Source: a virus
Virus record (IMG/VR): IMGVR_UViG_3300025669_000211
Coordinates: 1 to 22,446 of that record
DNA length: 22,446 bases
Strand: one strand, 5' to 3'
Below the pieces are notes generated by a model. It was not told the DNA's origin, ran no database searches, and saw only the letters and a list, made by a program, of their open reading frames with translations. Below, one piece after another: positions 11,763-22,446 of this stretch (position 1 is the stretch's first letter; every line of letters begins with the position of its first letter). The position numbers were made by a program, and so were the translations under genes.

Positions 11763-12285
11763 AATCACCCCTTATGGCATTGTCTTGATTTAACTTTACA
11801 GTAGCAAGGACTATTTTAATATTTTAGATTATTTGAGATTTTAGACAGACGGGTATTCTTTTAGAAGGTTGCTCCTAATCACTCCCGAAGTTAATACTTA
11901 GTTCTTACTTAGTGTTTCTCTTAACTACCTATCTAGCCTTCGTAACGACAACAAACAAATAAACAGTCGTAGTAGCCTTTTACACCTTTCATACTAGGTT
12001 CTGTAGTAAAGTTAGTTAAGGAATGTGTTAGCCTACCCGTAATCATTTGTTTAGCTAACCGTGGTCGGATTTGTGAGCTGTTACCCTTTTGTTTCACCTT
12101 AACTCCTTTTACACATTTTAACATCCCGCTTATTGGCTCAACACCTTTTACGGTCTGTACTCTCGCCGAGGATATGATTGCCCTCGCTGTCGCCTTTGAT
12201 TTTTAAGGAAAAAGGTCGTTATAAAAAACCTACACTTGTCTACTGCTTTTACTTCGCAAGTATATCCACAAGATAGTGGAAATGT
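11763..12285 (-). other. Long non-coding leader of the portal transcript
   Basis: About 0.5 kb between a putative promoter (12292-12320) and the portal ATG. A phage structural operon would normally have a few tens of bases here. The minus strand shows a 5-bp stem CGAGG/CCTCG around a 10-nt loop (12167-12186). An 11-nt stretch at 12249-12259 is complementary to the predicted small RNA. A direct repeat of TACTTAGT (plus strand) 11 nt apart lies at 11895 and 11906. Only one weak ORF (11933-12097) was found; nothing is seen on the plus strand. A structured untranslated leader is the simplest reading. Confidence 0.5.
11933..12097 (-). CDS. Doubtful small ORF in the portal leader
   Basis: 54 codons from a GTG at 12097 that has AAAAGGAG five bases upstream. 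An in-frame ATG at 12124 gives 63 codons but only GCGGG before it. The product starts MKQKGNSSQIRPRLAKQ, is basic in its first half, and ends GYYDCLFVCCRYEG. It is not similar to anything recognised, and the sequence around it looks structured rather than coding. It may be a real miniprotein, a leader peptide, or chance. Confidence 0.25.
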   Translation of the reverse strand: MKQKGNSSQIRPRLAKQMITGRLTHSLTNFTTEPSMKGVKGYYDCLFVCCRYEG

Positions 12286-12299
12286 TCTGATACTATCTT
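12270..12299. repeat. 8-bp inverted repeat over the portal-side promoter
   Basis: AAGATAGT (12270-12277) and ACTATCTT (12292-12299) are perfect inverted copies separated by 14 bases. The right arm covers the proposed -10 (GATAGT on the minus strand). This is the geometry of a dimeric repressor operator. In a read-through transcript it could instead form a hairpin. Confidence 0.5.
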
Positions 12300-12320
12300 A
12301 TAATATAATTAAATTGTCAA
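12292..12320 (-). promoter_or_regulatory. Putative promoter for the portal operon
   Basis: On the minus strand TTGACA (12320-12315) is followed after 17 bases by GATAGT (12297-12292, four of six consensus bases). It lies immediately after the T-tract of the upstream terminator, as expected for a fresh transcription start of the head operon. The -10 is imperfect and overlapped by the inverted repeat, so regulated use is plausible. Confidence 0.45.
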
Positions 12321-12321
12321 G

Positions 12322-12354
12322 ATAAAAAAATAGGGGGCTATAGAAATAACCCCC
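12322..12354 (-). terminator. Strong intrinsic terminator after the terminase block
   Basis: On the minus strand GGGGGTTAT pairs with ATAGCCCCC (nine pairs, one G-U) around the loop TTCT, followed by TATTTTTTTATC. Five G-C pairs at the base and seven T in a row make this a textbook rho-independent terminator. It ends the candidate small RNA and would also stop read-through from the terminase genes. Confidence 0.88.
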
Positions 12355-12403
12355 AAGTAGTAAAGTGTAGTCTCTTCTAACGAATAGACTTTGCGAAGTA
12401 ATA
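12322..12403 (-). ncRNA. Candidate phage small RNA
   Basis: A compact transcription unit with no ORF: consensus promoter, predicted start near 12403, then about 80 nt ending in a strong terminator. The predicted RNA has an unpaired 5' end that includes UUACUUCGCAA. Next is a hairpin (12369-12390) made of AGUCU/AGACU, an A-G mismatch, UUC/GAA and a GUUA tetraloop. A linker ACACUUUACUACUU follows, then the terminator hairpin. It lies between the large terminase gene and the portal leader. The alternative is that the promoter serves the portal operon and the terminator acts as an attenuator. Homology to a known RNA family was not recognised. Confidence 0.55.
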
Positions 12404-12409
12404 CTATGT

Positions 12410-12437
12410 ATTATACTCTAGTATGTTCTATTGTCAA
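12410..12437 (-). promoter_or_regulatory. Consensus sigma70-type promoter of the candidate small RNA
   Basis: The minus strand reads TTGACA (12437-12432), 16 bases, then TATAAT (12415-12410): both hexamers are perfect. The -35 is embedded in the 13-bp palindrome CTATTGTCAATAG (12428-12440), which could be an operator. It lies 64 bases after the terminase stop, pointing away from it, with no ORF before the terminator 80 bases on. Confidence 0.75.
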
Positions 12438-12500
12438 TAGTTATTTTCATTGATGTGTAATAGGTGTGTTTAGTGTGTATTTTGATGGGTTAATCATGGG

Positions 12501-14405
12501 TTATAATATATCCCTCAAGCCCTTCTTACCATTTACTGATTTAACAATCTCGTGAGTACTTGGTAGTATCCTGCGACCCTCTTCGTCCATCTCTCCAATC
12601 TTGTATGGGTTCTTACGCCAGTTTACGTTATCAAAGAAATAACACATCGCCATTAACGCATCTAAGTGTCCCATTGTCTCAGTCCTTTCGAAATCAGTCC
12701 TGTTTACATTCCAAATACCAAACCGTAACTGCTGGACAAGGTTAGGGCACATCTCTTCGTTTATCAGTATCTTACTCAACCCCACCCTCAACTGATTTAT
12801 CACCGAGTCTCTATACCCCTTGTTACTCTCCTTCTTTCTCTTACTGACTGGCATTACAGTGTATCCGTAACTCCTGCCCATATCGAATAACTGCTGCATC
12901 TCGTTATCACCAATTCTCTTCGGCTTGTCGTAACCCAACTCCCTCTCAATCCTCTTGCATTCCTTTACAATATCTTCCGTACTCTTATAGTGCTCGAAGT
13001 ACTCCCGCTCAATTACTAAATTACCCTTTGTGAAATCTAGGTACCCAAATAATACCGCAGTATTGTCCACTAACCCTAAATCAAAACAAACGTAACTATC
13101 AAAACTTGGTGGTCTCTCAATCGTACCAACACGGAGAGTACACGCCTCGGGAATTACTAACCTGTCCTTTGCACCATCATCCCTTAACTCATACTCAATC
13201 CGATAAGCATCACTCATCACACCACCACACCTCTCCAATATCCGCTCGTGTTGCTCATCACTAACTATCCCCTCCTCCAAACTCATGTGTATGTCCTGGT
13301 AGAAATAATAATTCCCAGCACTAGCACTCGCAATCTGAGTTATGAAGTCATGAGTTAAGTCTGGAGGTATCGTACTCGTGATTATCATCTGGCCATTAGT
13401 CGTGTCCAACTGAGGGCCCAAAACATGAGTTAACGTATATCTCGGTCTGTACTTCCAAAACCCATACTCATCACAGTATATTATGTCCGCTTCATTACCC
13501 CTCGCTTTAGCACTCTCATCCTTGTCCTTTACACCAAATAAATATATCCTGCTGCCACTCTCAAATAACCAGCAGTCATCCCTACTCAAATACCTTGGAG
13601 CTAACTCCATACAGTCACCGTATATGTGCTCCAATAAAGTTATGAATATCTCACGAAATGACTTCTGAGTGATACCACCTGCCCTTACAATAATCTTCTC
13701 CCTTATACACCTCTCAAAGATATATACAAACGTAGTCGTGCTCTTACCCCATCTCCTGTGAGTGTTGCTTAAACACCTCTTGCCATCCCTTAACATCCTA
13801 TACAACCTCAACTGGTCAGGTCTCAAATACCAGTCAGCAATTATCCCGTTCTTGAAGTACTTAACCAACCTACTCTTTCTCTCCTCTTTACCCACAATAG
13901 ATAACTTGTCCAAAATATCAGCCCTCTTGCCAGATACGGAAATTTTTTCCGAAACATCAACCTTGCCTTTAGAACCTGAAAATTTTTCTATGATGGATAC
14001 TCTCTTACTATCACTATCTGGATGCGGGGTACCCCCCTTAATGTCTATTGGTACACCTGCTTTAATATCAGTATAGGCAATCTCACACGTAGCATTGGGT
14101 GTTTCATAGGGCGTAGGATTAGCATTAACTTGTTTATTATCAGGTACTTGTATTTTAGCCTTATCTTGACGGATAACGGTCTTATGCACCTTTGCGGGCT
14201 TATTTGCCTTGAGTAACTCTCTCTCTGCCTTAGCGTTTAACCGTGCTTCCTTCCTGTTCAGTATGTTGATTCTCTTCCTGTCCTTAGCTCTACACGCAGG
14301 ACTACAGTATATTGGCACCTTTGTACCTCTTTTGTATGCTATGTCCTTATTACACTTTAGACAATTAGTATGAAGCCATTTGTTATTGTACTTAGTAGTG
14401 TTCAT
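12501..14405 (-). CDS. terL: Terminase large subunit with N-terminal zinc finger extension
   Basis: 634 residues. Packaging motor ATPase and nuclease that cuts concatemers and pumps DNA through the portal. The ATPase domain has Walker A NTHRRWGKST (214-223), Walker B ADIIYCDE (306-313) with catalytic E313, and a coupling motif IITSTIP (341-347). The C-terminal RNase H-like nuclease shows acidic residues D442 (VCFDLGL), D500 (RIGD) and D582 (HLDALMA). Unusually, about 180 residues precede the ATPase. They include a putative Cys4 finger C15-C18-C34-C38 (NCLKCNK ... YCSPACR), a basic helix, and three imperfect 13-14-residue repeats (about 135-174) of the type ..I..K.S.SGK. The start ATG has no clear ribosome binding site. 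A TTGACT/TAATAC promoter lies upstream. Confidence 0.92.
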   Translation of the reverse strand: MNTTKYNNKWLHTNCLKCNKDIAYKRGTKVPIYCSPACRAKDRKRINILNRKEARLNAKAERELLKANKPAKVHKTVIRQDKAKIQVPDNKQVNANPTPYETPNATCEIAYTDIKAGVPIDIKGGTPHPDSDSKRVSIIEKFSGSKGKVDVSEKISVSGKRADILDKLSIVGKEERKSRLVKYFKNGIIADWYLRPDQLRLYRMLRDGKRCLSNTHRRWGKSTTTFVYIFERCIREKIIVRAGGITQKSFREIFITLLEHIYGDCMELAPRYLSRDDCWLFESGSRIYLFGVKDKDESAKARGNEADIIYCDEYGFWKYRPRYTLTHVLGPQLDTTNGQMIITSTIPPDLTHDFITQIASASAGNYYFYQDIHMSLEEGIVSDEQHERILERCGGVMSDAYRIEYELRDDGAKDRLVIPEACTLRVGTIERPPSFDSYVCFDLGLVDNTAVLFGYLDFTKGNLVIEREYFEHYKSTEDIVKECKRIERELGYDKPKRIGDNEMQQLFDMGRSYGYTVMPVSKRKKESNKGYRDSVINQLRVGLSKILINEEMCPNLVQQLRFGIWNVNRTDFERTETMGHLDALMAMCYFFDNVNWRKNPYKIGEMDEEGRRILPSTHEIVKSVNGKKGLRDIL

Positions 14406-21488: not shown

Positions 21489-21649
21489 TGGATAGAACTA
21501 TAGTAACGATGGGAGCATTGATACTTGTTCTTATACTCTTGGTTTTTGGTACAGGACTAGAAAAGGAAGAACTAAGTAAGGAACTGAAGGCATACAAAAC
21601 GATGGTTAAGAGAAGTTGTAACTGTCACCCTTATAGGAGTACAAAATGA
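21488..21649 (+). CDS. Single-span membrane protein, 53 aa
   Basis: The ATG overlaps the previous stop as TAATG, with GGAGG upstream. Residues 5-22 (IVTMGALILVLILLVFGT) form one membrane helix, followed by a charged helix (EKEELSKELKAYKTMVKR) and a short tail with C44, C46 and H47 (SCNCHPYRS). Topology is probably N-out/C-in from the positive tail. It could be a membrane-anchored partner or an exclusion-type protein, but this is only suggested by its shape. Confidence 0.62.
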   Translation: MDRTIVTMGALILVLILLVFGTGLEKEELSKELKAYKTMVKRSCNCHPYRSTK

Positions 21650-22446
21650 AAAAATACAAAGTATTAAACAAAGACAAGACTAGCCCATTTAAAAACTTCA
21701 AGTATATGTTAGGTAAAGAACACCATGTTCCAGAGATTGATATGTGTAAAGACAATGACTGTTCTTACGGACTGTATGCCACCGATTTAGAGGGCATATT
21801 GTATTCCAACCTATCCGATGGTAAGCAAGTTTACGAGTGTGAGGTGAGGGGTAAAGAGGTTGTTATAGACCAGTTTAAACAGAGATTTGAATACTTAAAA
21901 TTGATTAGAAAAGTCCCACTAAAAGAACTAGAACCAATGCTTAAAAAAGAAAGCAAGAAGCTGGGTTATGATTTATATAGAGCATTGATACCAGTTAATC
22001 CCTTAGCTTCCAAGCCGAATAAGCCTACTAAAAAAGATATAGCAAACCTTAAAAAATGGTACTCTGTGAGGGAATCTGTGAGGGAATCTGTGGGGGAATC
22101 TGTGAGGGAATCTGTGGGGGACTCTGTGGGGTACTCTGTGGGGGAATCTGTGTGGGACTCTGTGGGGGAATCTGTGTGGGACTCTGTGTGGAACTCTGTG
22201 TGGAACTCTGTGAGGTACTCTGTGAGGTACTCTGTGAGGGACTCTGTGTGGGACTCTGTGGGGGCGTATGTTTCCAGCCTGTTTCCTAACATTAAGGACT
22301 GGAAGTATATATACCACAAAAAAGGCATAAACCCTTTTCAGTCATGTATAGATTTATGGCACAGAGGCTTTGTACCAAGTTTTGACGGTGAGATTTGGAG
22401 GTTACATTCTGGTAAGAAAGCAGAGATAGTATTTGAAATACACAAA
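21646..22446 (+). CDS. Tetrapeptide-repeat protein with DUF7666-like N-terminus (partial)
   Basis: The first 267 codons of a gene running off the right edge. The start overlaps the upstream stop (ATGA) with AGGAG just before it. The N-terminal region of about 95 residues (YKVLNKDKTSPFKNFKYMLGKEH, then YECEVRGKEVV..., YLKLIRKV) resembles the DUF7666 domain found in phage repeat proteins (from memory). A linker follows, then 17 copies of a tetrapeptide of the type [E/D/Y/N]-S-V-[R/G/W], then a globular part with several Trp (DWKYIYHK, DLWHRGF, GEIWRL). The repeats are perfect in phase and unbroken. Such domains may build a long rod. Function unknown. Confidence 0.8.
   Translation, partial: MKKYKVLNKDKTSPFKNFKYMLGKEHHVPEIDMCKDNDCSYGLYATDLEGILYSNLSDGKQVYECEVRGKEVVIDQFKQRFEYLKLIRKVPLKELEPMLKKESKKLGYDLYRALIPVNPLASKPNKPTKKDIANLKKWYSVRESVRESVGESVRESVGDSVGYSVGESVWDSVGESVWDSVWNSVWNSVRYSVRYSVRDSVWDSVGAYVSSLFPNIKDWKYIYHKKGINPFQSCIDLWHRGFVPSFDGEIWRLHSGKKAEIVFEIHK
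22060..22263 (+). repeat. 12-bp tandem repeat, 17 copies
   Basis: Unit xAx-TCT-GTG-xGG, 17 times without a gap (204 bases). TCTGTG is identical in all copies. Variation is confined to bases 1 and 3 of the first codon (GAA, GAC, TAC, AAC) and base 1 of the fourth (AGG, GGG, TGG). Confidence 0.95.

Follow-up and report, generated by a model that had tools for sequence, protein, structure and literature searches.

A predicted accessory small RNA gene between the terminase and portal genes of an uncultivated phage

The promoter-terminator unit in the terL-portal gap

The DNA analysed here, which we call the window, is IMG/VR record IMGVR_UViG_3300025669_000211 (22,446 bases), in which the head genes all lie on the minus strand. 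The small terminase (14977-14525; Pfam GP3_package) is followed by the large terminase terL (14405-12501), the portal (11768-9885), a protein (9888-8914) encoded where the scaffold usually is, between portal and capsid, and the major capsid protein (8901-7669), and the scan placed a further strong terminator past the end of the capsid gene, at 7660-7639. The gap between terL and portal measures 732 nt and holds a promoter-terminator unit. Two peculiarities of the coding regions may be mentioned in passing: TerL has at its N-terminus (residues 8-63, window 14384-14217) a zinc-ribbon-like CxxC...C..C stretch, matching the HNH endonuclease family phrog_1271 in PHROG (E = 8.6e-05) and with its cysteines kept in the relative L002 described below, and the ORF starting at 21646 contains a tandem pentapeptide-like repeat (RESVGESVRESVG...) at window 22050-22290.

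The unit opens with the promoter P1 (12410..12437, minus strand), TTGACA-16-TATAAT, which matches the sigma-70-type consensus at 12 of 12 positions and is the sole promoter above 10/12 in the 19,947 bases scanned. Transcription is expected to start near 12403, downstream of P1, and the predicted small RNA, RNA1 (12322..12403, minus strand, about 82 nt), extends from there to the U tract of an intrinsic terminator. This terminator (12321..12354, minus strand), found both by the scan and in the fold, consists of a 9-pair stem and a 4-nt loop followed by UAUUUUUUUAUC; the stem, GGGGGUUAU/AUAGCCCCC at 12354-12333, encloses the loop UUCU and leads into UAUUUUUUU with its seven U. Nearer the 5' end, the minimum free energy and centroid structures both contain a hairpin (12369..12390, minus strand) with a GUUA tetraloop and a 1x1 internal loop, reading AGUCU-A-UUC-GUUA-GAA-G-AGACU from 12390 to 12369, which is modest when taken alone. 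The ORF search found no frame of at least 20 aa on the minus strand from 12124 to the end of terL. The main elements of the preliminary description, namely the two perfect hexamers on the minus strand, the upstream hairpin with a tetraloop at 12390-12369, the nine-pair terminator with seven U at 12354-12322 and the lack of an ORF in the unit, are thus all present.

Perfect promoters occur at a rate of 0.04 per shuffled window, and a promoter of at least 10/12 with an equally strong terminator within 150 nt, present once in the real window, did not appear in any of 300 shuffles. RNA1 folds to -22.6, against -11.7 (sd 2.4) for shuffled sequences (z = -4.5; 0/200 shuffles), with the z-score owed mostly to the terminator. 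A promoter and a terminator of its own around a short non-coding stretch are what marks a phage-encoded small RNA at the level of sequence, and the stand-alone arrangement proposed in the preliminary description remains the best reading, well supported as a prediction because of the shuffling result and the fold z-score. We consider it probable that RNA1 exists as a transcript, a prediction for which nearly all the evidence is drawn from a single genome. That neither promoter nor terminator works in the real host, their likeness to functional signals being due to chance, appears improbable in the extreme given the 0/300 shuffles, even with the unit found in one phage only.

The same fold bears on the attenuator, raised earlier as the main alternative. 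In this reading read-through from P1 would be regulated, and the unit would serve the head operon as an attenuator or as a leader akin to a riboswitch. The terminator does stand in line with the downstream genes, as such a leader requires. However, a transcript cut before the 3' arm of the terminator folds only to -9.6 kcal/mol, and we found no antiterminator; the terminator fold prevails in full-length RNA1, the terminator keeps a probability of 0.99 in read-through RNA, and Rfam gives no match. Since no competing structure was found and the terminator probability is so high, regulated attenuation is disfavoured, and we regard it as very unlikely.

Comparison with related phages

Only two contigs were found that share these head genes. 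One, 3300005915_000237, comes from the same sample and is identical to the window across the 12,296 bases compared; the other, L002 (3300031227_007144), is 84% identical in TerL and 92% in the portal over the matched segments. DNA similarity to L002 ends at 12507 and restarts at 11817: in place of the 689 nt of the accessory segment (11818..12506, minus strand) the alignment has 163 unrelated nt in L002, while the 49-nt portal leader immediately beyond it (11769..11817, minus strand) is 98% conserved. The best promoter-like site in the L002 gap scores 9/12 and lies on the opposite strand. Since a phage with both terL and portal has unrelated DNA here, the unit is, on this sequence comparison, accessory, moron-like DNA, either gained by the lineage of the window or lost by that of L002. 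Both marks of a moron are found, namely absence between the same genes in a relative and transcription signals of its own, here P1 and the terminator.

This result also limits what RNA1 could be doing. Conservation of promoter and stems in related phages, one of the expectations raised at the outset, is not seen, the unit being absent from the single relative available, and the suggested part in a packaging-to-head switch loses ground, as L002 has terL and portal but not the DNA of the unit. The absence counts against a core function, either as a packaging RNA or in the core transition from packaging to head, but not against the existence of RNA1. A packaging RNA of the phi29 type, which the packaging motor requires and which would therefore be expected to stay with terL and portal, was considered and rejected, as L002 is without the unit at this locus despite TerL and portal being 84-92% identical, and as Rfam gives no match.

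Searches for the unit elsewhere returned little. No blastn homologue was found in phage or plasmid records, exact and degenerate RNA1 patterns hit nothing in viral contigs besides the same-sample contig, an exact 22-base RNA1 pattern found no homologue among genome contigs, and Rfam showed no match at the gathering score for either the window or the gap. The protein routes (from TerL, from portal, from capsid and from an alignment of TerL to which a Silvanigrella phage contributed) led only to L002 as a relative; the Silvanigrella phage itself, the only other relative found, has 23-27% protein identity, and some 15 kb separate its TerL from its portal. A looser pattern of promoter plus CTTCGCAA returned 39 stretches, all judged unrelated except the same-sample contig.

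In the course of these searches we also noticed a module TTGACA-17-TATAAT-(4-8 nt)-ACTTCGCAACA, in many cases with CACTAAAGGA and ATG behind it, shared by phage contigs that seem to have no relation to the window (L016, L017, L019, L020, L024, L027, L032, L039 and L045), three times in contig 3300021602_000006. It has the appearance of a repeated, conserved untranslated leader right behind the -10 box, as recovered by a search that itself demanded CTTCGCAA.

The second promoter and complementarity to its leader

Beginning one base past the terminator tract there is a second promoter, P2 (12292..12320, minus strand), TTGACA-17-GATAGT, with 10/12 matches. Further downstream lies a possible small ORF of 54 aa (11933..12097, minus strand), with a GTG start behind AAAAGGAG, a ribosome-binding site in the sequence; it would be 63 aa long if started at ATG 12124. 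Its coding score is ambiguous (0.06, where phage genes score 0.25 and out-of-frame readings -0.09), and a search for relatives of the small ORF found none.

A more prosaic account of the locus is that of an ordinary operon boundary, where the terminator closes the terminase operon, P2 drives the head genes (with P1 as an extra) and the P1 transcript is a functionless by-product. The position of P2 directly behind the terminator fits this well, as does the second strong terminator downstream of the capsid gene. Nevertheless, it leaves P1 unexplained: the transcript of this promoter, the best one scanned, would end after ~80 nt, and an operon promoter would have no use for so early a stop. L002, moreover, has no such arrangement in its gap; we consider a plain boundary rather unlikely.

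RNA1 is complementary to the leader of P2. Segment B of RNA1 (12356..12383, minus strand), which overlaps the 3' part of the hairpin and extends to the terminator, complements this leader at 79% over 29 nt with one gap; its partner B' (12216..12244, minus strand, pairing with 12383-12356) is the best RNA1 interaction site in the window. In addition, segment A (TTACTTCGCAA; 12391..12401, minus strand) is the exact complement of 12259-12249, forming an inverted repeat, and the order of A and its complement is permuted with respect to B and B'. The duplex of RNA1 with the P2 leader has an energy of -33.7 kcal/mol, ranking first among 2,973 windows slid along the two phage strands, and with self-structure charged the net energy of -19.6 kcal/mol ranks first among 890 windows. 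Shuffled leaders equal the real pairing in 2-5 of 200 and in 4-5 of 1000 cases, moderate statistics for a region that was picked after inspection. The outcome varies with window placement: on a 45-nt coarse grid the P2 leader is not the top partner of RNA1. On such a grid, none of 80 random 48-mers had its best partner 60-300 nt downstream, a weak control because the grid also misses the RNA1 site. In read-through RNA from P1, 23-24 B:B' pairs are predicted with probability >0.5, enclosing the intact terminator hairpin, whose outer pair has a probability of 0.99.

How such pairing might act on the small ORF is less apparent from the fold. Masking the part of the leader bound by RNA1 changes the predicted accessibility of the small-ORF ribosome-binding site only slightly, and so no clear on/off switch emerges. 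A scheme in which RNA1 would release this ribosome-binding site by an anti-antisense effect looks attractive by eye (UAAC..CCUUUU pairs with AAAAGG.GUUA); as accessibility scarcely shifts, we do not claim it.

The moderate statistics leave considerable room for the possibility that the leader match is due to chance and that RNA1 is a trans-acting stand-alone small RNA aimed at host messages or small RNAs, in the manner of PreS, AgvB and 24B_1. An independent promoter and terminator within accessory DNA would suit such an RNA, and there are precedents for phage small RNAs that act on host targets (PMC12197685, PMC4104026). On the other hand, the best phage partner of RNA1 lies only about 110-170 nt downstream, roughly a 1% coincidence by position alone. 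Host targeting is possible, and almost as likely as pairing with the leader. P2, the complementarity and the absence of the unit from the nearest relative are points beyond the preliminary description.

Known phage small RNAs and a possible mechanism

The closest parallel in layout is IsrK of the prophage Gifsy-1 of Salmonella, a small RNA that ends at a terminator ahead of the message it acts on, pairs with ~30 nt of that downstream message and activates it in trans (PMC4825925). Like IsrK, RNA1 has its own promoter and rho-independent terminator and stands in line with a small ORF and other genes that follow downstream; in both, the middle part complements ~30 nt downstream and would form a cis helix in read-through RNA, as predicted for RNA1. 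The differences are also clear. The RNA1 unit has a second promoter behind the terminator; its predicted target lies in the leader and so >100 nt ahead of the small ORF, whereas that of IsrK is within the small ORF; and it is flanked by head genes, where IsrK has antQ and anrP. Sequence homology of RNA1 to IsrK was not found, either at the Rfam gathering score in the window and gap or in phage records. On its sequence features we file the unit among phage-encoded small RNAs, a known kind, and claim no membership in the IsrK type.

Other comparisons illuminate the location rather than the mechanism. The EcOnc family (AgvB, AsxR) likewise consists of small RNA genes at an accessory phage insertion point, and moron-site small RNAs are known from lambdoid prophages (PMC4104026). 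The EcOnc RNAs, however, lie downstream of PR' as convergent pairs, measure 51-60 nt and are anti-sRNAs (PMC4104026), in contrast to RNA1, which sits in a head-gene cluster and for which no homologue was found. P22H and P22I resemble RNA1 as same-strand small RNAs beside portal, scaffold and coat genes, with no promoter or terminator described for them in the main text (PMC13397905). P22H is reported to be '17 bp upstream of portal', with coordinates 27,230-27,351 (PMC13397905, 2026); set against the AF217253 annotation, with portal gene 1 at 25177-27354 and scaffold gene 8 at 27368, this interval falls within the 3' end of portal and stops 17 nt short of scaffold. P22 also lacks an equivalent of the RNA1 site, as its terL and portal share one base. 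The preliminary description likewise named no small RNA known from this place in phage genomes. The alphaproteobacterial mmgR/suhB RNA (RF00519) is similar to RNA1 in size and in its terminator-centred fold, and membership was rejected (15.8 bits vs a gathering score of 41, E = 1.6).

Taking the locus as a whole, our leading explanation, put forward tentatively, is an accessory small-RNA gene whose product pairs with the P2 leader. Pairing with the adjacent downstream message is our preferred mechanism because the layout resembles that of IsrK, and as a conjecture by analogy it calls for slightly more reserve. In the proposed sequence of events, host RNA polymerase with the housekeeping sigma factor would make RNA1 from P1 independently of late phage transcription; the terminator would end RNA1 at ~82 nt and also stop transcripts coming from terL, and P2 would restart transcription toward the small ORF and the portal, scaffold and capsid genes. 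Free RNA1 would pair in trans with the P2 leader, while in read-through transcripts B and B' would pair in cis around the terminator hairpin. Pairing would then alter how the downstream message is translated or how stable it is, in an IsrK-like way, the direction of the effect being possible either way. The production of RNA1 is strongly suggested by the sequence, and the later steps we infer.

A bolder version, which we think improbable although worth stating, is an IsrK-like cis/trans circuit at the terminase-head junction, recently gained in one lineage, in which RNA1 would time the translation of portal, scaffold and capsid via the P2 leader. If true, head assembly would here be under the control of a small RNA. 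Few phage small RNAs are known, most of them from temperate phages that infect enteric bacteria. The present cassette, lying among the head genes of a phage not yet cultivated and with its predicted target in the neighbouring leader, would give a case of RNA-controlled virion assembly genes and would also exemplify small RNAs moving as morons; as it stands, the cassette is a sound prediction and not a discovery.

A separate complementarity touches the portal gene itself. The terL stop region (12504-12487) is complementary to the portal ribosome-binding site and start (11771-11754) over 18 nt at 83%, more with G-U pairs, and in a terL-portal read-through message such pairing would mask portal initiation. 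It may be due to chance, as which we treat it, because it ranks only about 19th of 8,932 windows.
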